From Alteromonadaceae bacterium (lineage in GTDB: Bacteria > Pseudomonadota > Gammaproteobacteria > Enterobacterales > Alteromonadaceae): 37,486 nt of DNA. Within the stretch, counting starts at the first letter, position 1, and each line of letters opens with the position of its first letter. The notes beneath the pieces are model-generated. The model searched no databases. It was not told the DNA's origin and was given only the letters and a program-made list of their open reading frames with translations. Shown in pieces: positions 85 to 21,785 of this stretch. The position numbers were made by a program, and so were the translations under genes. The stretch covers positions 1 through 37,486 of the forward strand of contig JALZUE010000118.1 of assembly GCA_023301705.1 (NCBI GenBank). The letters run 5' to 3'.

Positions 85-3057
85 ATGAAATTAAACAAAA
101 TTAGTGCGATTTTAAAGCAAGTTAAAAGTAAGAATAAAAACTTAAGATTTTTTGGAGTAACGTTAACAGCAGCATTAGCTTTACCAACATATGCTGTTGA
201 AGAAACAAAATCTCAGAATGTAAATACTGATAATATTGAACTTATTGAGGTTCATGGTATTGCTGGCGGGTTAGCTGAATCAGCTCGACAAAAACGTTTT
301 GATTCTCGAATTGTTGATGCCATTGTTGCTGAAGATATAGGTAAATTACCTGATAATAATATAGCCGAAGCATTACAACGTATTACAGGTGTTTCAATTG
401 ACACTAATTTTGGTGTGGGCCAGTCGGTTACTATTCGAGGTATCTCTGAAAATAGAATTGAGTTAAATGGTCGCTCTACTTCAGGTATAGGTCGTAACGG
501 TATTAGTTTAGATGATTTTCCATCAAGTTTTTTGAAAACAATTGAAGTGATTAAATCGCCAACACCGGAGATGATTGAAGGATCGTTAGGCGGTACAGTT
601 AATATGAAGACTGTTCGACCATTAGAATTAGATAAGCCTGTAGTTGCTTTTAGTTTAGATGGTGAATATGCAGATAAAGCTAGAAACTTAGCGCCTAAGT
701 TTAATATTTCAGCGGGTCAAAATTGGGATTTAGGAGAGTTGGGTGTTTTTGGTGCTTCAGCTGTTTTATCTTATCAAGATCGTGAATTACGCCGTGATGA
801 GTTTATTAATTTGGTTACTCCAACAGATTTAGACTTAGATGGTGATGGAGTTAATGAGCAAGCTAACACTCCTTCAGGGAAGTTTTTAGTTAGAAGCCAA
901 AATACAGTAGAGCAAAGAACTGAAGAACGCGAGCGAACAGCATTTGGCGTATCATTACAGTGGGCACCTGTAAATTCTGATAACTTCGTTTATTTAGATG
1001 TTTATGCCACTGAGCTTGACGGCGGTCAAGAAGGGTATTCAATTTTAAATGATAGTGTAGATAATACAGATTTTGTACTTGATAATGCTTTTGGTGATAG
1101 TCAGGGTCAACTTCAAAATTTTGGCTCTGGAAGTGTTTTTGTACAACCTAAGTCACAGTCGGATTTTACGACTAATGAATCAACATCAAGTGCAATTGGT
1201 GGCGAATTTTATTTAACAGATCAATTAAAAATATCAGCAGAAATTGCATACACAGAATCTGAAGATAGACGTAGAAAATCAGAGTTTAATCTGAGATCTG
1301 TTGATCGTGAGCGATTTCAAGCAGATGGTACCATTACGGAAGAATTATTTACAATTACGTTAACACCAAATAATGATCAAGTTCCTGGCCTTATTTTTTC
1401 AGAAGAAGATGCACTACTCGACTTAGAAAACTTAGCCATTCGTCAATTTAGTCACCAAAGATTTAATACAGACAATGAAGAAACTGCTATTCGATTTGAT
1501 ATTGAATACTCAGAACCTTTTGCAGGGTTAGATTTTATTTCATCTATTAAGGCTGGTGTTCGTGTAACAGACCGTGAATATGAATTGAATCGAGTTGACC
1601 TAAGAGGTGATGATGGTAATGAACTAAAAGATCTTCAAAAAACGTTATCGTTTGATGGTGGACCAATTACCCCTGTATTTGCTGATGAGTTTGTTGAGCA
1701 GTTTGGCGGATTCAAAGATATTAATCTTAGTAATACATTCGAACAAAGTGGTATTGCAGGAAATAACGCTTTAACTAGTTATCGGGTTTATGATGCGCGT
1801 CTTTTAGCTTATGACATTAATGGCACTTACGATAGGGTACAACAGTTACTTGCGGGTACTAATCGTGCTTTAACAGGTAGCCTTGAAGATAATTTAGTTG
1901 CTAATAATGGCTCTTTCGCACAAATAGAAGAAGACACTCAAGCGATATATACACAATTTCATTTGGATTTCGATAACTTATCTGCAGTTGTTGGTGCTCG
2001 TTATGTTTCTACTGATTTAACATCTCGTACTTTTGATGAATCAGGTGATAATGATTATTCTGATTTTTTACCAAGTATTAATGCAACATATCAATTATCA
2101 GAAGAAACCATTTTACGTTTTGCTGCTGCAAAAGTAATGCGACGAGCCGAATTTGGAGAGTTAAGCCCAGCTTTAAATATTGATAATTCATTAGTTACAG
2201 GTACACAAGGTTCTTTTAGATTAGACCCTTCGCGTATTACTCAATATGATTTATCTTTAGAGCATTATTTTGGTCAAGGTGGTTTGATATCTGGTGCAGT
2301 ATTCTATAAAGATGTTGAATCCTTTACTGTTTCTAGTAGTTCTTGTGTTGCTAGTTCTGAAACAATATCAGGACAAAATGTTACAGAGTTTGCGAATGTC
2401 TGTCTTTTAGATGTTGCAGGTGTGAGCCAAGAAAATGTTAATTTTGCAGGATCTGGTCAAGGTCTAGCATTTCTTCAAGATCAGAGAAATGCGGGTTTAA
2501 CGGGTATTGTTATTGATACTGATGTTAACGGTGGTAATGGTGAAGTTTTTGGTTTGGAATTAGCTTATCAACAACAGTTTGATTTCTTACCTGGTGCCTT
2601 TTCTGGTTTAGGCTTTAGTGCAAACTATACTTATGCTGAAAGTGAACAGCCAGACGGTAATGACTTATTGAATATTTCTAATAATACCTTTAATGCTCAA
2701 CTTTATTGGGAATATGCGAGTTATCAAGTTCGCTTTGCATATAACTGGCGTGATGAATACTTGAATACTCAAGATGAAAAACGTGTACGTCCTGTAGGAG
2801 CATTGGCTACAGGTGACTTTAATCGCACAGACCCTGAGGCACCAAATTTTGATCCTACCTTAGGTAATAATTTTCGCGATTCACGAGGCCAATTAGATTT
2901 TTCTGCAAGCTATGATTTAAACGAAAACATTACACTTGTTGCAAACGCCGTAAACTTAACAGGAGAACCAATTCGCCAAATTACTGAACTTGGAACTAAT
3001 TGGAAATATACCGAATCAGATAGTCGTTTTAGTGTGGGTATTCGAGCTCAATTTTAA
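85..3057 (+). CDS. TonB-dependent outer-membrane receptor, probably for alginate oligosaccharides
   Basis: Outer-membrane active transporter that would import oligosaccharides into the periplasm using TonB energy. The 990-residue protein starts with a long signal peptide (about residues 1-37, ending LPTYA). A TonB-box-like stretch (IELIEVHG) follows, then a plug domain with the usual core (NIAEALQRITGVSI, then VTIRG and ELNGR) and a long beta-barrel ending in a terminal Phe (GIRAQF), as is typical of outer-membrane barrels. The ATG is preceded by a purine-rich GGGGAAGGGGAG ribosome site. It is the first gene of a run that includes PL6 and PL7 alginate lyases, so alginate oligomers are the likely substrate. 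That assignment rests on context; the family alone only supports a sugar or siderophore receptor. A strong hairpin follows the stop codon. Confidence 0.93.
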   Translation: MKLNKISAILKQVKSKNKNLRFFGVTLTAALALPTYAVEETKSQNVNTDNIELIEVHGIAGGLAESARQKRFDSRIVDAIVAEDIGKLPDNNIAEALQRITGVSIDTNFGVGQSVTIRGISENRIELNGRSTSGIGRNGISLDDFPSSFLKTIEVIKSPTPEMIEGSLGGTVNMKTVRPLELDKPVVAFSLDGEYADKARNLAPKFNISAGQNWDLGELGVFGASAVLSYQDRELRRDEFINLVTPTDLDLDGDGVNEQANTPSGKFLVRSQNTVEQRTEERERTAFGVSLQWAPVNSDNFVYLDVYATELDGGQEGYSILNDSVDNTDFVLDNAFGDSQGQLQNFGSGSVFVQPKSQSDFTTNESTSSAIGGEFYLTDQLKISAEIAYTESEDRRRKSEFNLRSVDRERFQADGTITEELFTITLTPNNDQVPGLIFSEEDALLDLENLAIRQFSHQRFNTDNEETAIRFDIEYSEPFAGLDFISSIKAGVRVTDREYELNRVDLRGDDGNELKDLQKTLSFDGGPITPVFADEFVEQFGGFKDINLSNTFEQSGIAGNNALTSYRVYDARLLAYDINGTYDRVQQLLAGTNRALTGSLEDNLVANNGSFAQIEEDTQAIYTQFHLDFDNLSAVVGARYVSTDLTSRTFDESGDNDYSDFLPSINATYQLSEETILRFAAAKVMRRAEFGELSPALNIDNSLVTGTQGSFRLDPSRITQYDLSLEHYFGQGGLISGAVFYKDVESFTVSSSSCVASSETISGQNVTEFANVCLLDVAGVSQENVNFAGSGQGLAFLQDQRNAGLTGIVIDTDVNGGNGEVFGLELAYQQQFDFLPGAFSGLGFSANYTYAESEQPDGNDLLNISNNTFNAQLYWEYASYQVRFAYNWRDEYLNTQDEKRVRPVGALATGDFNRTDPEAPNFDPTLGNNFRDSRGQLDFSASYDLNENITLVANAVNLTGEPIRQITELGTNWKYTESDSRFSVGIRAQF

Positions 3058-3252: not shown

Positions 3253-5493
3253 ATGACAAAGGTGTCCAAATTACACTTTTATTCATTTGTGTTATTTATT
3301 GCGCTTTTTTCTTATTCAAAGGTAAGTTTGGCGAAGTTAGTCAACAATATTGAACAGTTTGATGAAGCTGTATCAATGTTAAAGCCTGGCGATGAAGTTG
3401 TGCTTGCAAATGGTGTTTGGAAAGATGTCGAATTAGTTTTCAAAGGTAATGGGTCATCAAAGAAACCTATTCAACTAAAAGCACAATCAACAGGTAAAGT
3501 TATTATTACAGGGCAGTCAAATCTAGCCTTTTCAGGGGAATATATAATTGTTTCAGGCCTTGTATTTAAAAATGGTTCTACGCCTACAGGAGAAGTTATT
3601 TCTTTTAGAACCTCTAATGAAGATTTAGCTAATCACTCTAGGGTGACTAATACGGTAATTGATAACTTTAGTACAGAACAGCGCCCTATATCTGATTTGT
3701 GGGTTGCTATGTATGGTAAGAACAATCGCTTTGATCACAATACGCTTATCAATAAAAGAAATAGAGGCGTTACTCTTGCAGTTAGAATGAATACAGCAGC
3801 TAGCCGTAACAATAATCATATTATTGAATATAACTATTTCGGACCAAGACAAATATTAGGCTCTAACGGCGGTGAAACATTAAGGATAGGAACCAGCCAC
3901 TTTTCACGAGAATATTCAAACACCACTGCCCGTTACAATTATTTTGATCGCACTAATGGTGAGCATGAAATTATTTCTAATAAATCGAGTGGTAATTCTT
4001 TAATTAGCAACGTTTTTTTTGAGACTCAAGGTACGCTTACAATGCGTCATGGTCATTTCACTAAAGTTGAAGGAAATTACTTTTTAGGTAACCGTAAACC
4101 TAATACTGGCGGAATTCGAATTATTAATGAAAATCAATCAGTAAGTAATAATTACATGTATGGGTTAACAGGTAAGCGATTACGCGGAGCGCTGGTAATT
4201 ATGAATGGAGTCCCTAATTCACCACCTAATCGCTACGATCCCGTAATTAATTCTAAAATGAATAATAATATTGTTATTGATAGTGACTATATTGAACTTG
4301 GCGCTGGTGCAGATGAAGAGCGTTCTGCGGCTCCTTCAACGTCTGAATTTAAAGGTAATATTATTTTAGGTAAGTCTAATTTAACTCCTTTTACTTTATA
4401 TGATGATATGTCTGGAATTGACTTTAAAGACAACCACCTTAATGAAGAAGCTAGTACACCTATTAAATCTGGTTTCGCGAGCACGACTTATTCAATTAGA
4501 ACTAATAAGTATGGGTTAAAATCTCCTGAGCAAGCGCTTCTTGATAAAATTGGCTTTGGTGAAATTAAGTTACCAGTAACTAAAAAAGAAGCAGGGGCTA
4601 ACTTTTACCCTAAAGAAGAGGCTCGTATTACATTTAAAAGTGGTAAAACTATTCAAGTAAAAAGAGGAACAAACACTCTGCTATTAGCTTTAGAGTCTAG
4701 CCAAGCAGGAGATATATTATTATTAGAAAATGGCAGTGAATACTTGTTGACAAAATTTGCTGAAATTCATCATCCAATCACAATAATGGCGGCTAAAGGT
4801 AATAAACCTATTATTCGATCACAAAAGCCTAATTTTATCAATATAGAAAATGGAGGAGCATTAGAGTTAGAAAACCTTTGGTTTGATGGCGCAGAATCAC
4901 CTGATTACAAAGGTAATAATGTTATTAGTACGAGTAATAACTCAATGAATATTAATTACTCGTTGTCGGTTCGTAATATTAAAGTAACAGATCTTGATGT
5001 GAATGGTTATTTCTATTTTTTTAAAGCCAATGCAGGTACTTTTGCCGACACTATTAATATTCTAGATTCCGAATTTAATAATATTACAGGCGCTATTCTT
5101 CAATTAAACAGAGAAGTAGATGATTTAGGTGTGTACAGCGTTGAAAATTTAGTTATCGCTGGAAATACTTTTACCAATGTTAAAGAAGAAGTTGTGACGA
5201 TTTATCGAGGAGGTAGAGATGAAAGTACCTTTGGCCCAATAGTGACAGTAACCAATAATACGTTAACTAATGTTGGTATGGGATCTACTCATCGTTCAGG
5301 TTCATCGATGTATTTTCATGGCGTTCAAAACTTAAATGTTTCAAAAACAACATTGAATCAAAGTGCACCGCTTGAACTTTTCATGACTAATGGTGAGCCA
5401 ATTACTGTTCTTCAAGATCTTGTACTAAAAGACACAGGAAGAATCCGTGCAAATAATAATGATTATGAAGCATTAAATATCACTTATAAATAA
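3253..5493 (+). CDS. Polysaccharide lyase family 6 (two-domain alginate lyase)
   Basis: Secreted or periplasmic endo/exo lyase that cuts alginate (or, in other PL6 members, dermatan/chondroitin) by beta-elimination. The 746 residues begin with a signal peptide (1-27, ending VSLA). A parallel beta-helix of the chondroitinase-B/PL6 type runs over about residues 30-430, and a second beta-helix domain over about 460-740, the arrangement of the two-domain AlyGC type. PL6 signatures are visible: NGGETLRIGTS (205-215), EIISNKSSG (239-247) and GTLTMRHG (260-267). Lys244 and Arg265 fit the family's catalytic base and acid, and Glu208 sits in the Ca-binding/active-site strand. An AGGAG site lies 8 bases before the ATG. 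The stop codon lies inside a long terminator stem. Substrate is inferred as alginate from the PL7 neighbours. Confidence 0.93.
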   Translation: MTKVSKLHFYSFVLFIALFSYSKVSLAKLVNNIEQFDEAVSMLKPGDEVVLANGVWKDVELVFKGNGSSKKPIQLKAQSTGKVIITGQSNLAFSGEYIIVSGLVFKNGSTPTGEVISFRTSNEDLANHSRVTNTVIDNFSTEQRPISDLWVAMYGKNNRFDHNTLINKRNRGVTLAVRMNTAASRNNNHIIEYNYFGPRQILGSNGGETLRIGTSHFSREYSNTTARYNYFDRTNGEHEIISNKSSGNSLISNVFFETQGTLTMRHGHFTKVEGNYFLGNRKPNTGGIRIINENQSVSNNYMYGLTGKRLRGALVIMNGVPNSPPNRYDPVINSKMNNNIVIDSDYIELGAGADEERSAAPSTSEFKGNIILGKSNLTPFTLYDDMSGIDFKDNHLNEEASTPIKSGFASTTYSIRTNKYGLKSPEQALLDKIGFGEIKLPVTKKEAGANFYPKEEARITFKSGKTIQVKRGTNTLLLALESSQAGDILLLENGSEYLLTKFAEIHHPITIMAAKGNKPIIRSQKPNFINIENGGALELENLWFDGAESPDYKGNNVISTSNNSMNINYSLSVRNIKVTDLDVNGYFYFFKANAGTFADTINILDSEFNNITGAILQLNREVDDLGVYSVENLVIAGNTFTNVKEEVVTIYRGGRDESTFGPIVTVTNNTLTNVGMGSTHRSGSSMYFHGVQNLNVSKTTLNQSAPLELFMTNGEPITVLQDLVLKDTGRIRANNNDYEALNITYK

Positions 5494-5525: not shown

Positions 5526-5645
5526 ATTACTGCTGCTTTATCAATAGAGCAGCATAAATAGAGAGAATTCTTCTATCAGTATTATATTGAAATGTTAATG
5601 GTTAATAGTTCATTACTATCACGATATTATTTATTTAGGATTTAC

Positions 5646-6410
5646 ATGAATACAAAATTAAATGGAAAAAGTATTTTAATTACTGCGGGTGCTCAAGGGA
5701 TTGGAGAAGCTATTACTAAACACTTTATTGATAGTGGTGCAAATGTAGCTATTCATTATTTTTCTAGTGCAAGTACAGCAAATAAATTGGTTGAATACGC
5801 AATTAAAAAAGGAAGAAAGGCTATTGCGATAAGTGGAGATTTAACGAATGAGACTGAAGCCAAAGCGTTAGTTGATCAAACGATTGAAGCGTTAGGAAAC
5901 TTAGACATACTGATTAATAACGCAGGTTCACTTGTCGCTAGAAAATTGTTAAATGAAATGGAAGAAGGCTTCTGGCGTAAAGTTATGGATATTAACCTTT
6001 CGTCTATGATGTTTGTAACACGAGCCGCCTCACCATATCTTGCTAAAAATGAACACAGTAGTATTGTTAATTTAGCTTCTCTTGCTGGGCGCAAAGGTGG
6101 GCATCCAGGGTCTTTGGCATATTCTACAAGCAAAGGTGCAATTCTTACTTTTACTCGAGCACTTTCTGTAGAGCTAGGCCCTCAAGGTACTCGAGTAAAT
6201 GCTGTGGCTCCAGGGCTTATTCTTGGTACGTCTTTTCATAATACACATACAACGACAGAGTCTGCGAATGAAACGATTGCCAGTATTCCTATTCAACGAG
6301 CTGGTAATGGGAGCGATGTAGCTCGAGCGGTAGAATATTTGGCATCAGAGTATGATGGTTTCATTACTGGTGCCACCCTAGATATTAATGGTGGCGTTTA
6401 CAATATGTAA
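5646..6410 (+). CDS. SDR-family NAD(P)H-dependent reductase, candidate DEH reductase
   Basis: Classical short-chain dehydrogenase of 254 residues. Visible motifs are the dinucleotide-binding TAGAQGIG (13-20), NNAG (91-94), Asn117, and the catalytic Ser145, Tyr159 and Lys163 in LAYSTSK. The start is placed at ATG 5646, which has AGGA five bases upstream and gives a normal SDR N-terminus. An ATG at 5592 would add 18 residues, lacks a ribosome site and is unlikely. In alginate loci an SDR reduces 4-deoxy-L-erythro-5-hexoseulose uronate (DEH) to 2-keto-3-deoxygluconate. Position after PL6 makes that the leading guess. FabG-like or gluconate-5-dehydrogenase-like activity on another sugar acid cannot be excluded by sequence alone. 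Confidence 0.85.
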   Translation: MNTKLNGKSILITAGAQGIGEAITKHFIDSGANVAIHYFSSASTANKLVEYAIKKGRKAIAISGDLTNETEAKALVDQTIEALGNLDILINNAGSLVARKLLNEMEEGFWRKVMDINLSSMMFVTRAASPYLAKNEHSSIVNLASLAGRKGGHPGSLAYSTSKGAILTFTRALSVELGPQGTRVNAVAPGLILGTSFHNTHTTTESANETIASIPIQRAGNGSDVARAVEYLASEYDGFITGATLDINGGVYNM

Positions 6411-6489: not shown

Positions 6490-6924
6490 ATGCTTAAAAC
6501 AGCTGTTATACACCCAACAATAATGGAAGCACTTGGTCGTTCAGGTCACTTTTCTCAAGTAGTTATTGCTGACGGAAATTTACCTGTTGGTGCTATGAAT
6601 GGGCCTAATTCTACTACGGTACATTTAAATTTTCGTCCGGGATTATTAGATGCTTTAACTGTACTTGAAGGAATACTTTCTGTTTGCCCTGTTCAAGGGG
6701 CTATTGTTATGGAAAAACCAGCGGAAGCGAATGCTGATATTCATCGTTCATATAAAAACTTACTTGGTGACGTAACGTGGGATGAAATGGAACGTTGGTC
6801 TTTTTATGACCAAATTAGAGAGCCCACTACTATTTTGATTATCCAAACAGGTGAACAACGCCGATTTGCTAATATTATTCTTACTGTGGGAGTGGTAAAA
6901 ATGGTAGAAGAAAGTAACTTTTAA
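6490..6924 (+). CDS. RbsD/FucU-family sugar mutarotase-like protein
   Basis: Cytoplasmic protein of 144 residues from the family that interconverts sugar anomers (D-ribose pyranase RbsD, L-fucose mutarotase FucU). The N-terminal pattern fits RbsD/FucU: His20 in RSGHFSQ and Asp28 in VIADGNLP match the conserved catalytic His and the following Asp. The C-terminal TGEQRRFANIIL matches the family's TGE...(Y)ANI strand, with Phe126 where Tyr is usual. Neighbours are an SDR, an Nramp-like transporter and a GntK-like kinase, so its substrate is probably a uronate or a keto-deoxy sugar acid of alginate breakdown rather than ribose or fucose; this is inference. No cupin KdgF is seen, and this protein might take a similar role in ring opening. 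A long inverted repeat overlaps its stop codon. Confidence 0.85.
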   Translation: MLKTAVIHPTIMEALGRSGHFSQVVIADGNLPVGAMNGPNSTTVHLNFRPGLLDALTVLEGILSVCPVQGAIVMEKPAEANADIHRSYKNLLGDVTWDEMERWSFYDQIREPTTILIIQTGEQRRFANIILTVGVVKMVEESNF

Positions 6925-7102: not shown

Positions 7103-8341
7103 GTGTCTGCACTGATTAAAATTATTTTGGGTTTTGGCCCTGCTTTTTTAGCTATTGGTTATACCATTGGTACAGGTAGTGTTACAGCAATGATTGTAGC
7201 CGGTAGTACTTTTGGTATGCAATTGCTGTGGGTGTTATTACTAAGTTGTTTATTTTCAGGAGTACTTATATATGCTTATGGTAACTTTGCTTTAGTTACG
7301 GGAAAAACAGCATTATATAGTTTCAAAAAGCATTTACGGTTCGGTAAGTTAATGGCAATAATGATTATTATTGGTGTTAGCTTTGGCCAATGGAATTCAT
7401 TGATGGGAATTCTAGGTATTTCTGCCAATATTCTTTTCGAACTAATTGCAATGTACTTTCCTTCTGTAATACCTCATAAGTACGGTGTTGTTCTTGCAAT
7501 TGCTATTACAGTAATAAGTATCATGTATGCAATATTACTTATTGGAAAATATTCATTATTTGAAAAACTCCTTGTGATATTTGTTTCTTGTATGGGGTTA
7601 TCTTTTATATTGTCCTTATTTGTTGTTCATCCTTTACCTATTGAAGTTGTTCGGGGCATGGTGCCTATAATTCCTGACGTTGACGGTGGAAAAATGATGG
7701 TGGCTGCTTTTGTGGGAACAACTATGGCAGCAGCAACTTTTCTTTCAAGGCCTCTTTTTATTCAAGGTAAAGGGTGGACAATCAAAGACAAAGTTCAGCA
7801 AAAAAATGATGCTATTGTTGCTGCTGTATTAGTCTTTATTATCAGTGCATCTGTAATGGCCGTAGCAGCAGGTTCTTTATTTCATGAAGGTGAAAGAGTT
7901 ACTGCAGTGTTAGATATGGTAAATGTACTAGAACCCATAGCAGGTAAAACAGCGCTTACTATTTTCTTTTTTGGTACGCTTGCTGCTGGTCTATCGTCAG
8001 TATTTCCTTGTATGTTAATAGCACCGTTATTAATTGAAGACTATCGCTCAGGTAAGTTGGATACACAATCTAAACAATTTAGAATTATTACAGGCTTCGC
8101 TGCCATTTTTGCGCTTACTATTCCTATTTTTGGCTTTAACCCTATAAAAGGACAATTATTGACGCAGGTTTTTAATGTTTTTGTTCTGCCTTTGGTTATC
8201 TTAGGTATTATTTTAATGATTAATAACAAGAAAATAATGGGTGAAAGTGTGGCGGGTTACTTACTTAACTTTATTTTAGGCTTAGCATTCTTATTTTCGG
8301 TGCTTATTTCTTATACGGGTATTCTTGCGCTTCTCGAGTAA
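7103..8341 (+). CDS. Nramp-fold transporter lacking metal-binding motifs; candidate sugar-acid transporter
   Basis: Inner-membrane protein of 412 residues with about 11 hydrophobic helices. The N-terminus aligns by eye with MntH/Nramp proteins: GPAFLAIGY, then AGSTFGMQLLW, then TGK. The TM1 metal motif DPGN is replaced by a TIGTGS stretch (21-26) with no Asp. In TM6 the MPH motif reads MAA (Met208, Ala209, Ala210), so His and Pro are lost. This argues against Mn/Fe transport, while the fold is kept. It lies between a mutarotase and a sugar-acid kinase, 17 bases ahead of the kinase, which suggests it carries a catabolic intermediate; this is inference. The start is GTG 7103 with AGGGAG seven bases upstream. 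An ATG at 7101 overlaps it in another frame and hits a stop after four codons. Confidence 0.82.
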   Translation: MSALIKIILGFGPAFLAIGYTIGTGSVTAMIVAGSTFGMQLLWVLLLSCLFSGVLIYAYGNFALVTGKTALYSFKKHLRFGKLMAIMIIIGVSFGQWNSLMGILGISANILFELIAMYFPSVIPHKYGVVLAIAITVISIMYAILLIGKYSLFEKLLVIFVSCMGLSFILSLFVVHPLPIEVVRGMVPIIPDVDGGKMMVAAFVGTTMAAATFLSRPLFIQGKGWTIKDKVQQKNDAIVAAVLVFIISASVMAVAAGSLFHEGERVTAVLDMVNVLEPIAGKTALTIFFFGTLAAGLSSVFPCMLIAPLLIEDYRSGKLDTQSKQFRIITGFAAIFALTIPIFGFNPIKGQLLTQVFNVFVLPLVILGIILMINNKKIMGESVAGYLLNFILGLAFLFSVLISYTGILALLE

Positions 8342-8358: not shown

Positions 8359-8847
8359 GTGATTTTAATTGTTTGTGGTGTTTCAGGTACTGGAAAGTCT
8401 ACGGTAGGTAAATTGTTAGCAGAAAAAATGAAATATTCTTTTTTTGATGCCGATGACTTTCACCCTGAATCAAATGTAAAAAAAATGCAAAGCGGAGTTG
8501 CTTTGAATGATAAAGATAGGCAACCGTGGCTTGAATTACTTTCTACTAAGTTAGCATTATGGGAACGTAATGAAGGAGCTGTACTTGCTTGTTCTGCTTT
8601 AAAAGAATCTTATCGTAAGGTTTTAGCATTTCAATGTAAAAGCGAAATAAGGTGGGTAATACTTAATGGTTCATCAGTGTTACTTAATGAACGGTTAAAT
8701 TCACGAAAAGGGCATTACTTTGCTCCAAAGTTACTTGAATCTCAATTGAATACTTTGGAGTTACCAGATTATGGGTTGTTAGTTAATATTGAATTAACCC
8801 CAGAAAAAATAATTAATAAAATTTCACAATGGTTAAGTGAAAAATAA
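8359..8847 (+). CDS. gntK: GntK-family gluconokinase-like sugar-acid kinase
   Basis: Cytoplasmic P-loop kinase of 162 residues, close to the usual size of thermoresistant gluconokinase. Walker A is GVSGTGKST (8-16). The family pattern DADDFHPESNVKKMQSG, LNDKDRQPWL, ACSALKESYR and RKGHYF is all present. GntK makes 6-phosphogluconate from gluconate with ATP. In this operon no gluconate dehydratase or aldolase is visible, so the real substrate may be another aldonic or 2-keto-3-deoxy acid, such as KDG; that is inference. The gene starts at GTG 8359, 17 bases after the transporter stop codon, with AAAAGGG as ribosome site, so the two are co-transcribed. Confidence 0.86.
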   Translation: MILIVCGVSGTGKSTVGKLLAEKMKYSFFDADDFHPESNVKKMQSGVALNDKDRQPWLELLSTKLALWERNEGAVLACSALKESYRKVLAFQCKSEIRWVILNGSSVLLNERLNSRKGHYFAPKLLESQLNTLELPDYGLLVNIELTPEKIINKISQWLSEK

Positions 8848-8955: not shown

Positions 8956-10038
8956 ATGAATATTAAAAAAACACTACCTGTTTGCAATGTAATTATGATG
9001 GGAATACTTTTTTTACAGGGCTGTGGTACAGCGATTAAAAATAAAGATCAACAAGTAATATTTCCCGCAGAAAAGTTTGATTTAACCCAATGGCAAATTA
9101 ATACACCTACAGATGTTGATAACAACGGTATTGTTGACGAAATAGGTGTAGCTGAAATACAAACGTATCAACATTCAGATTATTTTTATGTAGATACTGA
9201 AGGTAATATGGTTTTTGCGGCACCTAACAAAGCGATAACTTCTATTTATTCAACTAATACTCGTAGCGAGTTACATCATATGCTTGCTGGTGGAAAAGCT
9301 GAAATAAAGTCATTTGCAAATAACTTTGCACTTCAATCTAATCGTCGCGCAGATGCATTCGCTCAAATAGGAGGGAACTTGCAAGCTACGCTTAAAGTTA
9401 ATTATGTTTCAAAGCGTGCAAAATATGATGAAAAACCTACTGCTTTTTCTGTTGTTGTAGGTCAAGTTCATGCAGTACAAGATAAAGCACGTAGAGATGA
9501 AGGTGAGGGTTATGGCTGGGGTAATGAGCCTTTAAAAATATATTACAAAAAATTACCAAATCATGATTATGGTTCTGTTTTTTGGAATTATGAACGAAAT
9601 CTTGAGAAAGATAATCCAGATAGAATAGATATAAGCTACCCTGTATGGGGTAAGCCATGGCTTGATTTTAGTGATCCAAAAGAACAGGGGATTGCGCTAA
9701 ATGAAGCATTTAGTTACGAGGTGAATATATATGAAAATATCATGTATTTAACATTTACTAATGCTCGCCACGGCACGGTTACTTATGAACTAGATTTATC
9801 TAACAATATTGATGCGTATGGTAATGTTGACGAATTAGACTTTCCTAAAGGTTATACTGGTGAAGGACACCACTTTAAAGCTGGAGCATATAATCAATGT
9901 AGTACAAAAGATGATCCTAGCTTTCGCTACCCGGCATGTTCAGGTATAGGAGATTGGAGTACTGACAAAGCCAATGGGGACTATACTCAAGTTACCTTTT
10001 CTCGCTTAGTGACAGGTTTAGGTAGAAAACCAGAATAA
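8956..10038 (+). CDS. PL7 alginate lyase, lipoprotein (QVH type)
   Basis: Secreted lyase of 360 residues. A signal peptide ends in lipobox LQGC with Cys23, followed by Gly, so outer-membrane anchoring is expected. The PL7 jelly-roll starts at about residue 36 (FDLTQWQINTP). The three family motifs are present: RSELHHM (103-109), QVH (170-172) and HFKAGAYNQ (306-314). Gln170 and His172, the Arg of RSEL and Tyr312 correspond to the catalytic set. In PL7 a QVH motif is generally linked to preference for mannuronate blocks and QIH to guluronate-containing blocks. This fits a division of labour with the QIH enzyme at 13889-15742. It ends the + strand sugar-acid gene run and is followed by a clear terminator. 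Confidence 0.92.
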   Translation: MNIKKTLPVCNVIMMGILFLQGCGTAIKNKDQQVIFPAEKFDLTQWQINTPTDVDNNGIVDEIGVAEIQTYQHSDYFYVDTEGNMVFAAPNKAITSIYSTNTRSELHHMLAGGKAEIKSFANNFALQSNRRADAFAQIGGNLQATLKVNYVSKRAKYDEKPTAFSVVVGQVHAVQDKARRDEGEGYGWGNEPLKIYYKKLPNHDYGSVFWNYERNLEKDNPDRIDISYPVWGKPWLDFSDPKEQGIALNEAFSYEVNIYENIMYLTFTNARHGTVTYELDLSNNIDAYGNVDELDFPKGYTGEGHHFKAGAYNQCSTKDDPSFRYPACSGIGDWSTDKANGDYTQVTFSRLVTGLGRKPE

Positions 10039-13888: not shown

Positions 13889-15742
13889 TTAATTTTCATC
13901 ATGTGTATTAGAAATACGATAGAAAGTAGCGATATCAGTATCGTCATCATCACCAGTATTGTTTTGTGTATATACACCAGCTTTAAAGTACATCCACTCA
14001 TCAGAAGTGTCGTAACCACTATCCAGCTCATTCATGTTAATAGTAAGTTCAGCTATTGGAGTACCATCAAAATCACCTGTACGAATGATAACTGTGATAT
14101 CAGCACCCTCATTAATAATTTCATAAGAGAATAATTCATCTAGTTCGATACCGTTACTTGGGCCATCACCATCGTTATCATCACACCGTTCGTCACCAAT
14201 TAGGTTGAACGTATTATCTCTATTATCAATTTCATGTTCAAAGTATACACACCCGAAAGTTGCATCAGGCAGTTTACGATAATACAAGCGAGCAGGTTCA
14301 TCATCACTCGCATGAATTTGACCTATAATAGTACGACCAGGATGCAATCCATTACCTGTTGTAGTTACTCTATTAATACGAAGTGTTGCGGTTAGTTCGC
14401 CGTTGCGACCACCCCAATCACCATCTGTAGGCTGATATCCTAGTGCCCAGTTATTAGGAGTTACACCAGTAGTTGATATGCTTGTGTCACCAGTACGTAA
14501 TTGTTCTCTTAATTCCGAACGAGGGAAACCAGAATTACAACTTCTATTCGTTGTAGCGCCACCTACAGGGCTTACAAATCGCATACCACCATCAGTATGA
14601 GTAAAAAAGTAAGGGCTTGAAGTAGTATCGCGAAATTCGTCCCACTCATCTTCGTTTGAACGTACCGCTCGACATTCATCATCTTCTCTAATTGCCGGAG
14701 TATCAATTGACCATTGTGTTAAATCAAAATTTTCCCATGGCTCAAGGTTTGGATCTAAGCCGAAGTTACCAGAAACCTGAGTTGTTGGTGCAGGTTCAGG
14801 GCTTGGTGCAGGCGGTGCAACAGGTGTAGGTGTACTTTCTGAAGCATTAGCTACTTCGAAATTAACAGATACCGTATCTGTAGACCCATTATTAAATAAT
14901 ATATTTGCTGTTAATGTATGGCCGTCATCTGATAAGTCAGATGTATCGAATGGATTTGCTGCAGAACCGCCACCTTGTAAATCGAATGGTTGTAAGTTTT
15001 CTTCAGAAATACGAGCGCCATCAATAAAGAAAATAACTTGATCAATTTCGTCTTGATCAGCTTGATCTATCAATATAAATACATCATCACTTAATGTTTG
15101 GCCACTTAAGTTAGACGTATTTGAACGATTCTCTGAACTCGCTATGACAATATTTACATCTGATGCTGATGATGCATTATTGTCATCATCTGAGCTATCA
15201 TCATCTGAGTTGTTATTATCAGAGCTGCTATTATTATCGCTAGTGTCGTTATCATTGTCATTATTCGTATTACCGCTAGCGTTGCCACCAGCACCAATAA
15301 TCATAATTTCGGTGATATTAGTTGTACCTTCATCTAGACCACGTACACGTATTTGACGAGCAGTGATGTCTTCTATGTTGTAATCTTCAAAATTATTAGT
15401 TGTACCGCTACTTGAGCCAGAAAAAACTGTTGTCCAAGCGCCTCTAGTACCTGAACGCCCGGCTATTTCAAACTCATAAACCGTTCCATCACCACGTCCC
15501 CAAGCAATTTCAACATTATCAACTCGTTGATCAGAGCCTAAATCTAGTCGAACCTCTTGAGGGTTACCGTTACCAGCCCAACGAGAATCAAAAGATAAAT
15601 CACCATCAATAACATTAGACGGTGAAAATCCATTTATTGTACCACTACCAGTAGCACGGTTTATTTCTAACGTTTCTGCACTTATTGCTGTGCTAAGCAG
15701 AGTAAGCGCACCGATAGCAGAAAGTTTGTAAAATGATTTCAC
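13889..15742 (-). CDS. Multi-modular PL7 alginate lyase with CBM32-like domain (QIH type)
   Basis: Secreted lyase of 617 residues. Order: signal peptide 1-22; F5/8-type C (CBM32-like) sugar-binding domain 23-152; Asp/Asn/Ser-rich linker about 153-193; an Ig-like beta domain about 194-300; Pro/Ala/Thr linker 301-322; PL7 catalytic domain about 328-612. PL7 motifs are RSELREQL (408-415), QIH (475-477) and YFKAGVYTQ (585-593). QIH is usually linked to guluronate-containing blocks, complementing the QVH lyase at 8956-10038. The CBM32-like module should hold the enzyme on polymer. The gene starts at GTG 15742 with GGGGAG nine bases upstream. Both linkers are typical of extracellular multi-domain enzymes. 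It has its own promoter region and a terminator, so it is a single-gene unit. Confidence 0.92.
   Translation of the reverse strand: MKSFYKLSAIGALTLLSTAISAETLEINRATGSGTINGFSPSNVIDGDLSFDSRWAGNGNPQEVRLDLGSDQRVDNVEIAWGRGDGTVYEFEIAGRSGTRGAWTTVFSGSSSGTTNNFEDYNIEDITARQIRVRGLDEGTTNITEIMIIGAGGNASGNTNNDNDNDTSDNNSSSDNNNSDDDSSDDDNNASSASDVNIVIASSENRSNTSNLSGQTLSDDVFILIDQADQDEIDQVIFFIDGARISEENLQPFDLQGGGSAANPFDTSDLSDDGHTLTANILFNNGSTDTVSVNFEVANASESTPTPVAPPAPSPEPAPTTQVSGNFGLDPNLEPWENFDLTQWSIDTPAIREDDECRAVRSNEDEWDEFRDTTSSPYFFTHTDGGMRFVSPVGGATTNRSCNSGFPRSELREQLRTGDTSISTTGVTPNNWALGYQPTDGDWGGRNGELTATLRINRVTTTGNGLHPGRTIIGQIHASDDEPARLYYRKLPDATFGCVYFEHEIDNRDNTFNLIGDERCDDNDGDGPSNGIELDELFSYEIINEGADITVIIRTGDFDGTPIAELTINMNELDSGYDTSDEWMYFKAGVYTQNNTGDDDDTDIATFYRISNTHDEN
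15167..15274 (-). repeat. Low-complexity Asp/Asn/Ser-coding tract
   Basis: About 36 codons made nearly only of Asp, Asn and Ser, giving repeated TCATCA/TTATTA-like triplets on the + strand. It encodes the flexible linker after the CBM32-like domain and could vary in length by slippage. Confidence 0.7.
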
Positions 15743-18091: not shown

Positions 18092-19150
18092 TTAAAGGGT
18101 GTTTTTACCCATATTTGTGAGTTGTTCTTTGTTAAGATCCCAAAACATTGTTGATGATGTTTCAGTATGAATATTGATTTTTCCACTGTTGTTAAACGTA
18201 CCTATTTCAGCGCAGCTAAGGTGGCTATCAGAAAAATAATCTGACAAATTGTCCGCTCGTTCTGAAGGTACCGCTAATAAAAAACCAAAACTTTGAAAGG
18301 CTTTAAGCCATCTAAGTTGATGTGAGCTGTCAGGTGAAGGTATCTTATCTAAGTGAACATTAACCCCACACTTTGTTAGCTCTAACATCATCAATAAAGT
18401 GCCAAATATGCCACCATTACTAATATCTTTGGCGGCTACCGCTAATTCTTGTTCAGCTAAATCTGCAGGTATACGCCATTGTGTTTGTATCTCGGTATGA
18501 CTTTTCCCTTGAATACAGCCCCAATAAGCAGTGTCACCATGCCAACTGCCTGTTAAATCTGTTAACATGAAAAGTTTGTGTGTTGGTTCTATGTGATAAC
18601 ACGACAGTAATTTATTTGCATAACCAGTAATAGCTACCGCTAAGTTGGGTTGCACAGCGTCGTTAATACTACTGTGCCCACCAGAAAACTTTACATCAAA
18701 AGCAGTACATGCACGTTTGATATGAAAAAGCAGCTCTTCACTTTGTGCTGTGTTGTTATGCCAAAAAGCATTAACAATAGCGGTTGGTCTACCACCCATG
18801 GCAGCAATATCACTAACATTAGCCATTACTGAAGACCAACCTGCAGCTCTTGGATCATTTGCGACAAAATTAGGTAACATACCTTCCATTGCTAATAGCT
18901 GATATCCATTACCAGCTTTAAATGCAGCGCAGTCATCACCGGGTAAGCTATAAAGTGTTTCAAGATCTAGTGATGCCTCTTCATTAATATGATTGGCAGC
19001 TATTTTTATTGCCTTTTTAGCATCTATTTCTGGCAGGCTTTTTAGTGTATCGCACAAGTCATTTAATGCCTGTTGAGACAAAATTACATTGCTTTTAGTA
19101 ACAGATTTATCTGTTAAGTTTTTTATTAAATCTTTGTTAGCAATATTCAT
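18092..19150 (-). CDS. Nit1C AIR synthase-like protein (Sll0787 family)
   Basis: 352-residue protein of the PurM/ThiL/SelD/HypE ATP-dependent superfamily. The N-terminal half has the acidic metal/ATP site GDDCAAF (about 69-75) and the family stretch VMANVSDIAAMGGRP (about 108-122). The C-terminal part carries AAKDISNGGIFGTLLMML, the usual second half. Such enzymes activate an amide, carboxylate or phosphate with ATP. The Sll0787 family is always tied to the Nit1C cluster; its own reaction is not known to me. Its ATG overlaps the stop of the GNAT gene (TAATG), showing translational coupling. Confidence 0.9.
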   Translation of the reverse strand: MNIANKDLIKNLTDKSVTKSNVILSQQALNDLCDTLKSLPEIDAKKAIKIAANHINEEASLDLETLYSLPGDDCAAFKAGNGYQLLAMEGMLPNFVANDPRAAGWSSVMANVSDIAAMGGRPTAIVNAFWHNNTAQSEELLFHIKRACTAFDVKFSGGHSSINDAVQPNLAVAITGYANKLLSCYHIEPTHKLFMLTDLTGSWHGDTAYWGCIQGKSHTEIQTQWRIPADLAEQELAVAAKDISNGGIFGTLLMMLELTKCGVNVHLDKIPSPDSSHQLRWLKAFQSFGFLLAVPSERADNLSDYFSDSHLSCAEIGTFNNSGKINIHTETSSTMFWDLNKEQLTNMGKNTL

Positions 19151-19686
19151 TATTTATCCCGTGGCATAAAAGGGTATTGGCTTAAGTCTGCTTGCATATA
19201 TACGTGTGGTTTACCTGCAACATCTACTGAGCCCAATGTGTGCCAATGTACACTTTTAAAGTATTTTTCATTTTGTGGTTGAACAGTCGCAAGAAACTTT
19301 TCACAGCCTAAATCTTTCGCTCTTGATACTGCTTCGTTGATCAGCGCTTTACCTATGTTTTGATAGCCTCGATAAGCTCTCGCTACACAAAGGCGACCAC
19401 CGTACCAAGTATTTTCTTCATCAGGCAATTGGTATATACGAACAGCACCAGCAACTTCTTCACCGATACACCAATTAGAGGCTAACGCAATAATGGGAAT
19501 TGCTTGAAAGTCTTGAGAATCTTTTTCGTTGCCTAATAAAATTTTTTGCTCTTGTGAGAATGTTTTTTTACGTAGTTGATAGTACTTTTGTTTTTCCCAT
19601 GGTGAATTCGCTACTTTCACTTGAATATGTTGCGAACGAAAATTAGGAAAAACGTCATTAATTAGTGCAAATTTGGTATTAGCCAT
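19150..19686 (-). CDS. Nit1C GNAT N-acetyltransferase (MSMEG_0567/Sll0786 family)
   Basis: 178-residue GNAT-fold acyltransferase. The acetyl-CoA pyrophosphate loop is seen as RAYRGYQNIGKAL (about 119-131), followed by the helix INEAVSRAKDLG. The C-terminal strand FLATVQPQNEKYFKSVHW is typical of the fold. It would acylate an amine produced by the cluster. Position between radical SAM and AIR-synthase-like genes matches the conserved cluster order. AAGGGC precedes the start. Confidence 0.9.
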   Translation of the reverse strand: MANTKFALINDVFPNFRSQHIQVKVANSPWEKQKYYQLRKKTFSQEQKILLGNEKDSQDFQAIPIIALASNWCIGEEVAGAVRIYQLPDEENTWYGGRLCVARAYRGYQNIGKALINEAVSRAKDLGCEKFLATVQPQNEKYFKSVHWHTLGSVDVAGKPHVYMQADLSQYPFMPRDK

Positions 19687-19696
19687 AATAAAGCCC

Positions 19697-20785
19697 TTAC
19701 TCGTAACTTTTCATTGAAGAACATGCACCGCACTTTGCGCAGCCGGCTTTTAAATCATTTGAAGTCATTATTTTTTCTTTTAAAAGTGGGCCTAAAGTAG
19801 AAAATATACGTTTTAGCATTGATGGATCAGGCATAGGGTGATTTGCTAAGGGTGTACCTGCTACAGGAGTAAATGGCACAACAAAAGGGTAAACACCTAA
19901 GTCGATTAGCTCTTTACTCACGGTAATGATTTCTTCTTCTGTATCACCAAGTCCAGCTAGTATGTAAGTGCTAACATTACCTTTGCCAAATACTTGTACC
20001 GCAGCTTTATAAGCAGAGATATAACGAGACATAGGTACACTTGCTTTGCCAGGCATAATATCTTCGCGTACTCTTTGACTCACCGCTTCTAAATGCATGC
20101 CTATTGCATCAACGCCGGCATCTTTTAATGCTTGAAACCAAAAATCTTCATTAGGTGGTTCACACTGAACTTGTAAAGGAATATCAACAGCAGCTTTTAC
20201 CGCTTTAGCGCTTTCAAGTAACATTTTCGCGCCGCGATCTTTTAAGTTTGGCGTGCCTGTGGTCATAATCATTTGGCTAATGCCGTCAAGCTCTACGGCT
20301 GCTTTAGCTACTTCAGCGAGTTGCTCTGGAGTTTTGTGTGCAATGGTCGTTTCATTTTTTAATGATTCTTCAATGGCACAAAATTGACATGATGTGTTTT
20401 TATTTCCATACCGTACACACTTTTGAAAAACGGTTGTCGCTAGTACATCTTTGCTATGTAAGGTTGCTATTTTTGAATAAGGAATACCATCAGCTGTCGA
20501 TAATTGATAAAAATTGGGTTGAGCAGGTATAGTCGCTTTATCAATTAATATGTCGTTTTCATAAATTAGTACGTTTTTTTTGTCGTCACTGTAGGTTGCT
20601 GAATAGTTTGATTGTTGAACTTGCTCATTAAAAATAGGTACCATTGATGTTTGGTCTTTAAAATTAAAGGCTTTGTGATCAGTAGGGCCAGCACCACCTT
20701 TTCTATTTAAATCATATTCATCTAACTCGAACCAGCGAATACCTATTGTTTGAATATCGGTAAGTTGTTGTTTATTAATGCCCAT
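19697..20785 (-). CDS. Nit1C radical SAM protein (MSMEG_0568 family)
   Basis: 362-residue radical SAM enzyme from ATG 20785, one base after the nitrilase stop codon (TAAAATG). AGGAG lies eight bases upstream, so a longer start at 20818 inside the nitrilase gene is rejected. The cluster-binding cysteines are Cys123, Cys133 and Cys136, a CX9CX2C spacing rather than the usual CX3CX2C. The C-terminal tail has a CX2CX2C group (Cys349, 352, 355) that may hold a further iron-sulfur cluster. The middle resembles the biotin synthase/lipoyl synthase barrel (MTTGTPNLKDRG, QCEPP, GMHLEAVSQRVREDIMPGK). The reaction is not known. Confidence 0.91.
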   Translation of the reverse strand: MGINKQQLTDIQTIGIRWFELDEYDLNRKGGAGPTDHKAFNFKDQTSMVPIFNEQVQQSNYSATYSDDKKNVLIYENDILIDKATIPAQPNFYQLSTADGIPYSKIATLHSKDVLATTVFQKCVRYGNKNTSCQFCAIEESLKNETTIAHKTPEQLAEVAKAAVELDGISQMIMTTGTPNLKDRGAKMLLESAKAVKAAVDIPLQVQCEPPNEDFWFQALKDAGVDAIGMHLEAVSQRVREDIMPGKASVPMSRYISAYKAAVQVFGKGNVSTYILAGLGDTEEEIITVSKELIDLGVYPFVVPFTPVAGTPLANHPMPDPSMLKRIFSTLGPLLKEKIMTSNDLKAGCAKCGACSSMKSYE

Positions 20786-20786
20786 T

Positions 20787-21785
20787 TTAACACTCCTCTG
20801 TATTATTCTCTGATCCACTCACCATAGTGGGTACTTTAAGGCCAGAGTAATCATTCATGTTATGCATATGAGCAGTGGGCGTTTTATCAATAAGTAAGCT
20901 TAATAGTTCAGGTCGACTGTAATGCCCCACTGAATCCATCATGCGCTTACGTTTATTAATTAAACTTAAATCAAGTTCAGCAATACAAGCACCTTCACCA
21001 GAGTCACTTCGTAATGTTTCACCTAATAAACGGCCTTCGGGAGATACAATCGCAGTAAAACTACCGCCGCTGATGGCTTCGATTGGGCAACCGGTATCAT
21101 TAACTATTTGCTGTTGTTGCTCTGGGCTTAACCAGCTAGTGGCGTTCACGACAAAACAGCCACTTTCTAGCGCGTGATGACGAATAGTGACTTCTATTTG
21201 TTCAGCAAATATTTCGCCGACTAAAGAGCCCGGAAACATGCTGACATGTATTTCTTCATGATCAGCCATTAATGCATAACGTGCTAATGGGTTGTAGTGT
21301 TCCCAACAAGCAAGAGAACCTACGCGTCCTACTTTTGTGTCAACAGCGGCTAAGCCTGAACCATCGCCTTGCCCCCATACCATGCGTTCATGATAGGTAG
21401 GTGTAATTTTTCTTCTGTGCTGAACGAGCGTACCGTCAGCATCAAATAAAAGTTGTGCGTTATAAATGGTTTTATTATCTAGTTCGTTGATACCTACCGA
21501 TACCACCATGTTGGCGGCTTTAGCTGCTTGTGCAATTTGCTCGGTATAAATTGAAGGTACCTCAACACTTTCTTGCATTAACAATAGGTGTTGTTTTCCC
21601 ATTTGATAGGGAGGCTGAACAAATGAAAAATAAGGGTAGTAAGGGACTAATGTTTCTGCAAATACAACAAATTCTACGCCGTCTTTGCCAAGCTTTTCAA
21701 TCCAGTCACAAATTTTATTAACGGTACCTGCGCATGAATATAATACGGGGCTACATTGCACTGCGGCAGCAATTACTTTGGTCAT
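20787..21785 (-). CDS. nit1: Nit1 nitrilase (Nit6803-type)
   Basis: 332-residue nitrilase of the C-N hydrolase superfamily with the catalytic triad visible: Glu44 in [11 protein letters not shown], Lys126 in [12 protein letters not shown] and Cys160 in [14 protein letters not shown]. The Cys-Trp-Glu-His-Tyr string marks a true nitrilase rather than an amidase. It would hydrolyse a nitrile to acid and ammonia. The related Synechocystis enzyme (Sll0784) acts on fumaronitrile in vitro, and the Nit1C cluster was linked to cyanide assimilation in Pseudomonas fluorescens NCIMB 11764. The natural substrate here is therefore open. AAAAGGGAT precedes the start. Confidence 0.94.

Follow-up and report, generated by a model that had tools for sequence, protein, structure and literature searches.

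The protein encoded at 7103..8341 (+) of the window, the whole 37,486-nucleotide stretch of Alteromonadaceae DNA analysed here, is an Nramp-like transporter that has lost the metal ligands of its family. We consider it probable, at roughly 80%, that this protein (here called NrampX) uses the Nramp/LeuT fold to bring a hexuronate-type sugar acid released from alginate across the inner membrane; its transport activity is a prediction from sequence, gene neighborhood and phylogeny. The ORF of 412 aa has a GTG start with AGGGAG just 5' of it, and matches the Nramp profile PF01566 at 204.2 bits (gathering cut-off 29.8) over positions 1-354 of 357, with weak scores against MntH models. It is the sole strong PF01566 match in its genome (assembly 80% complete). 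A pseudogene is ruled out by strong purifying selection on the family (dN/dS 0.02-0.03 in two close homologue pairs). Automatic annotation labels such proteins “Nramp family divalent metal transporter”; for Alteromonas sp. 76-1, one supplement legend names an “Nramp, metal-ion transporter” as part of the alginolytic systems. Papers on the alginate loci of Maribacter, Flagellimonas, Zobellia, Catenovulum and Roseihalotalea leave the NrampX-type gene undiscussed, and a search of the open-access literature found no proposal of sugar-acid import for its clade.

The gene lies in a cluster entirely on the forward (+) strand, consisting of a TonB-dependent receptor (85..3057; TIGR01782, 540 bits), a PL6 alginate lyase of the chondroitinase B family (3253..5493; PF14592, 356 bits), an SDR that we propose to be a uronate reductase (5592..6410; a type conserved at about 79-85% from one cluster to another, even between phyla), an RbsD/FucU-type mutarotase (6490..6924; PF05025, nearest solved FucU 3mvk), NrampX, a GntK/IdnK-type gluconokinase (8359..8847; TIGR01313 at 146 bits, above the cut-off of 113.75; nearest solved structures 3t61 and 1knq) starting 17 nt 3' of NrampX, and a PL7 alginate lyase (8956..10038; PF08787, 175 bits). 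These profile matches agree with the original prediction, which had placed the transporter between a mutarotase and a sugar-acid kinase in an alginate cluster. No pxp genes were found among the annotated window neighbors, promoter scans gave matches at chance level, and no relatives of NrampX were found in viral contigs or phages. Beyond this operon, the window also encodes another PL7 alginate lyase (13889-15742, -), which carries an F5/8 type C domain at its N terminus, and a compact four-gene run (18092-21785, -) whose products include a radical SAM protein and one resembling AIR synthase.

The loss of the metal site can be read residue by residue once NrampX is aligned with about 98 homologues, EleNRMT and canonical proteins. 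Where TM1 is unwound, canonical Slc11/MntH proteins have the hallmark DPGN (DxxN); here IDPGN has become IGTGS (D to G23, P to T24, N to S26), so that GTGS occupies residues 23-26 (7169..7180, +). In the unwound part of TM6, the canonical ATVMPH (hallmark A/CxxM plus MPH) is replaced by TTMAAA at residues 206-211 (7718..7735, +), with A to T206, M to A209, P to A210 and H to A211. All metal ligands are thus replaced, including the TM1 Asp that even the Mg2+-transporting NRMTs keep: of the two NRMT hallmarks, NrampX has TxxA/T in TM6 (T206..A209), while in TM1 it has GxxS in place of DxxG. The loss of the Asp-containing DPGN had been correctly called from the sequence alone, as had that of MPH, although the replacement had been read as MAA, one residue off; the exact change is MPH to AAA, M208 aligning one residue before the canonical Met. 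A further difference is Arg216 (7748..7750, +), a His in canonical and GPGT proteins. Gly at the TM1 Asp position and Arg at 216 are each present in 57/57 GTGS-clade sequences compared; the Asp is present in 7/7 DPGN sequences, and His at 216 in 34/36 DPGN and GPG sequences. The motif loss is therefore fixed in the clade and not a chance event.

An AlphaFold2 model built with 93 sequences (pLDDT 88.3, pTM 0.88) predicts that the LeuT/Nramp fold is kept, with helix breaks at I22-G23 in TM1 and M208-A209 in TM6, the two unwound helices typical of this fold. Its best solved match is DraNramp (6c3i_B; Z 45.5, 2.5 A, 379 residues), in line with the Nramp framework proposed originally; EleNRMT (Z 43.9) and the canonical Nramp/MntH structure 10ky_A (Z 42.4) also match closely, and after the Nramp and NRMT structures come APC carriers, AdiC among them (Z 30.4). 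In APC amino-acid carriers a GSG bend binds the substrate carboxylate, and the predicted GTGS bend of NrampX would resemble it.

In a tree of GTGS, GPG(T) and DPGN sequences computed with the TM1 and TM6 motif columns masked, the GTGS sequences form one clade (bootstrap 100; support 100/98), the GPG(T) outgroup a separate one (99/96) and the DPGN proteins a third (100/100); NrampX does not group with the GPGT/TxxVPY sequences. The outgroup and the NRMTs are both known inside PF01566, where the outgroup is given without a function (PMC9606685, PMC10606218, PMC12873925). Three GTGS subclades adjoin uronate catabolism genes: the window type, a UxuA/UxuB/cupin type and a glucuronate isomerase type. 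A further GTGS subclade occurs in Flavobacteriia, in tandem directly before NrampX (L095:8658-9911, L113:8668-9918), and on a Neorhizobium plasmid another Nramp relative without the Asp (L205:3995-5179) has as neighbors a LacI regulator and an aldolase of the dihydrodipicolinate synthase family. A GTGS-clade member (IGTGSITTM, with Arg in TM6) is also found in 546/5426 complete E. coli genomes. On the chromosome of strain SK1144 (L254:7052-8281) it is annotated as a divalent metal transporter, and its neighbors are LacI, CoA-transferase, enoyl-CoA hydratase and FAD protein genes; since it adjoins CoA-transferase and enoyl-CoA hydratase genes, not every GTGS-clade member is a uronate carrier, and the E. 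coli cargo is probably another organic acid. In E. coli STO_Bone7 an Nramp-like gene is split into two frames on an 834 kb “plasmid” (L041; CP054241.1, 795223-820418) that is probably a piece of chromosome, as it carries dnaB, alr, tyrB and dusA.

Gammaproteobacteria, among them Alteromonadales, have homologues of NrampX at 73-86%, and Flavobacteriia have them at 66-71%. Linkage was surveyed in the best 80 of 546 relatives (21 gammaproteobacterial and 59 flavobacterial loci, flanks up to 10 kb). An alginate lyase, SDR, GntK, Gnd, KdgK-type or KDPG aldolase gene is present in the flanks of 72/80 loci, spanning both phyla; the other eight (8/80) have no gene of this panel. In 19/21 gammaproteobacterial loci NrampX is followed directly by GntK, and within three genes of NrampX are an SDR (16/21), PL6 (16/21) and PL7 (13/21). 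GntK is absent from most flavobacterial loci; in this group a KDPG aldolase gene lies directly upstream in 30/59, a PfkB kinase gene within three genes in 30/59 and a GntK-6-phosphogluconate dehydrogenase fusion directly upstream in 8/59. Such GntK-Gnd fusions inside flavobacterial alginate clusters are seen at L086:6489-8387 and L109:8061-9944. Among 47 control loci of canonical or GPGT relatives, most with flanks of only 1.5 kb and all scored with a panel drawn up from the linked loci, the only matches were SDRs at 29-32% in two related genomes. Across 297 family genomes, NrampX and the window-type SDR each occur in 17 and together in 16, the relatedness of these genomes being such that Fisher values for the co-occurrence overstate it; one exception is a genome in which NrampX accompanies a truncated SDR frame (G233). 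Linkage in 72/80 loci, gene-position counts and co-occurrence rule out a chance neighborhood: the motif-less form is linked to alginate and uronate genes in many genomes of two phyla, as the original prediction requires.

The sister subclades extend this pattern to other uronates. The second-subclade protein, 37% identical to NrampX, is beside genes for UxuA (mannonate dehydratase), UxuB (fructuronate reductase, mannitol-dehydrogenase family) and a cupin related to mannose-6-phosphate isomerase (1qwr): across 23 such loci the cupin lies within three genes in 22, UxuA in 17 and UxuB in 13. In several Paraglaciecola genomes the window-type and second-subclade paralogues are in adjacent, opposite operons. 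Representatives of the second and third subclades are encoded at L059:14183-15424 and in L051, respectively. Within the 297 family genomes the second-subclade paralogue is accompanied by the cupin in 25/25, and two extra genomes have the cupin; in G010 it is alone, with no transporter visible beside it. Neighbors of the third subclade include glucuronate isomerase (UxaC), a UxuA-like protein, an IlvD/Edd dehydratase, an SMP-30 lactonase and an SDR. Reduction of L-guluronate at C1 gives D-gluconate; D-mannuronate isomerizes to D-fructuronate, which UxuB and UxuA convert to KDG; and UxaC is the matching entry step for D-glucuronate. From this chemistry, each subclade appears to adjoin enzymes fitting one saturated hexuronate.

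The strongest evidence for sugar-acid import by the NrampX clade is the replacement of its genes by TRAP transporters. One genome (G986, locus L253) has the order PL6, SDR (85%), RbsD (86%), DctP, DctQ, DctM, GntK, PL7, with the TRAP transporter exactly at the expected NrampX position; in the window's own genome (L252) it is the sister paralogue whose expected place is taken, DctP, DctQ and DctM standing ahead of the cupin and UxuA. These DctPQM systems are unrelated to NrampX, being three-protein systems with a periplasmic binding protein, and share with it the operon position; because of this shared position in L252 and L253, they probably carry out the same task. The L252 DctP is 67% identical to 4NX1/4OVP, which we take to be uronate complexes (taluronate, mannuronate). 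For the L253 DctP the best solved relative is 4N8Y and the third 4X8R, which bind galacturonate and glucuronate (PMC11668362). Linkage, TRAP replacement and the two further uronate-linked subclades together support the original suggestion of an Nramp fold turned to the uptake of sugar acids or keto acids; neither the replacement nor the two paralogous subclades beside uronate operons had been foreseen.

Which sugar acid is carried is a more tentative matter. For the window clade we lean, at somewhat less than even odds, toward L-guluronate, because its reduction at C1 yields D-gluconate, the substrate of gluconokinase; DEH, ranked next, or gluconate are other possible cargoes. In the proposed route, substrate would enter through NrampX by alternating access, its carboxylate bound by the neutral, backbone-amide-rich GTGS bend of TM1, with Arg216 helping in charge balance. 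RbsD/FucU would interconvert the ring forms of L-guluronate, the SDR would reduce C1 to give D-gluconate, and GntK would form 6-phosphogluconate for Gnd, which some Flavobacteriia encode as a fusion with GntK. For the sister clade the cargo would be D-mannuronate, processed by the cupin isomerase, UxuB and UxuA. A broader proposal, plausible though we would not yet bet on it, is that hexuronate paralogues within PF01566 are split by epimer (L-guluronate, D-mannuronate, D-glucuronate), and that the window encodes an undescribed route from L-guluronate through D-gluconate to 6-phosphogluconate, in addition to the known DEH route. A point against L-guluronate is that it may be scarce: most monomers released by alginate lyases are unsaturated (DEH), and the original chain ends are the sole source of saturated guluronate. 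The MFS transporter also present in 35/59 flavobacterial loci suggests that NrampX may have another or additional cargo in that group.

The main variant within sugar-acid import, which we consider unlikely but still the most serious competitor, is that NrampX imports DEH or KDG and no saturated uronate, the SDR being a DEH reductase. NrampX is found among PL6, PL7 and PL17 lyases, for which DEH is the main monomer product (PMC13390454), and in Flavobacteriia it directly follows kdgA-type and kdgK-type genes. Those same loci, however, already have a DEH-reductase-like SDR (match to 4tkl) and the MFS transporter, whereas 4tkl is absent among the best solved relatives listed for the window SDR, and the variant leaves GntK, Gnd and the sister-clade UxuA, UxuB and UxaC unexplained. 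Import of D-gluconate itself is improbable: gluconokinase is directly downstream in 19/21 gammaproteobacterial loci, but gluconate does not arise from alginate, this reading leaves the conserved mutarotase and SDR without a role, and most flavobacterial loci do not have GntK. Equally improbable is continued transport of a metal (Mn2+, Fe2+, Mg2+ or Ca2+), whether to supply enzymes or to handle calcium released from alginate. UxuA needs Mn/Fe, and cofactor supply for it was considered and rejected, since UxuA is missing from the window cluster and TRAP systems can take over the gene's place. The PF01566 match, the weak scores against MntH models, the TM6 TxxA common to NrampX and the Mg2+ transporters (PMC8806188), and a report of Mn import by YcsG, from another group (PMC10448178), speak for metal; against it, all 57 GTGS sequences compared have Gly in place of the Asp that canonical Nramps, NRATs and NRMTs retain (PMC8806188), TRAP systems stand in place of the Nramp-like gene in two clusters, and the closest window-clade partners (SDR, mutarotase, gluconokinase) suggest no common special-metal need. 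No same-motif homologue shown to move Mn or Fe was found in the literature searched.

Compared with known systems, the uronate importer proposed here has PF01566 and the fold in common with canonical Nramp/MntH proteins (Slc11; DraNramp, BfraNramp), and differs from them in its identity of about 19-22%, its absent DPGN/MPH ligands, its separate clade and its sugar-acid neighbors. EleNRMT is like NrampX in fold, TM6 TxxA and absence of the Met, but the NRMT motif, DxxG-TxxA (PMC8806188), keeps the TM1 Asp that is Gly in NrampX. By analogy, the closest precedent is PxpT/YcsG, a candidate 5-oxoproline importer on the same fold. PxpT, an Nramp-family protein of Corynebacterium glutamicum, is needed for growth on 5-oxoproline (PMC13274462); its homologue YcsG has been named both a Mn importer (PMC10448178) and, via PxpT, a 5-oxoproline importer (PMC13274462). 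In our set the pxpABC-linked relative (L057/L015) has GPGT, without Asp; YcsG, being from a pxp operon, is therefore placed in a different group from the GTGS clade. Like NrampX, the GPGT sequences here are without the Asp, Asn, Met and His ligands; they differ in having GPGT and TTVVPY motifs with a His in TM6, in place of GTGS and Arg216, and PxpT/YcsG (PxpT compared by description) belong to a pxpABC operon, a linkage that NrampX does not have. Given the growth requirement for PxpT and the Asp-less pxpABC-linked relative, there is genetic, though contested, support for an Nramp relative without the Asp carrying an organic acid.

NrampX-type clusters occur in two phyla, in Gammaproteobacteria of the one and Flavobacteriia of the other. 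If their transporters are uronate carriers, hundreds of alginate, mannuronate and glucuronate clusters would gain a missing inner-membrane importer, and the clusters would point to a second way of using the guluronate half of brown-algal alginate. For the Nramp field, this would be a natural example of carboxylate transport by the fold of a metal carrier; because the Asp-less proteins lie outside the canonical branch, the reverse direction, from carboxylate to metal carrier, is also possible. The role of the metal-free “Nramp-related” proteins, left open in recent Nramp phylogenies, becomes testable.
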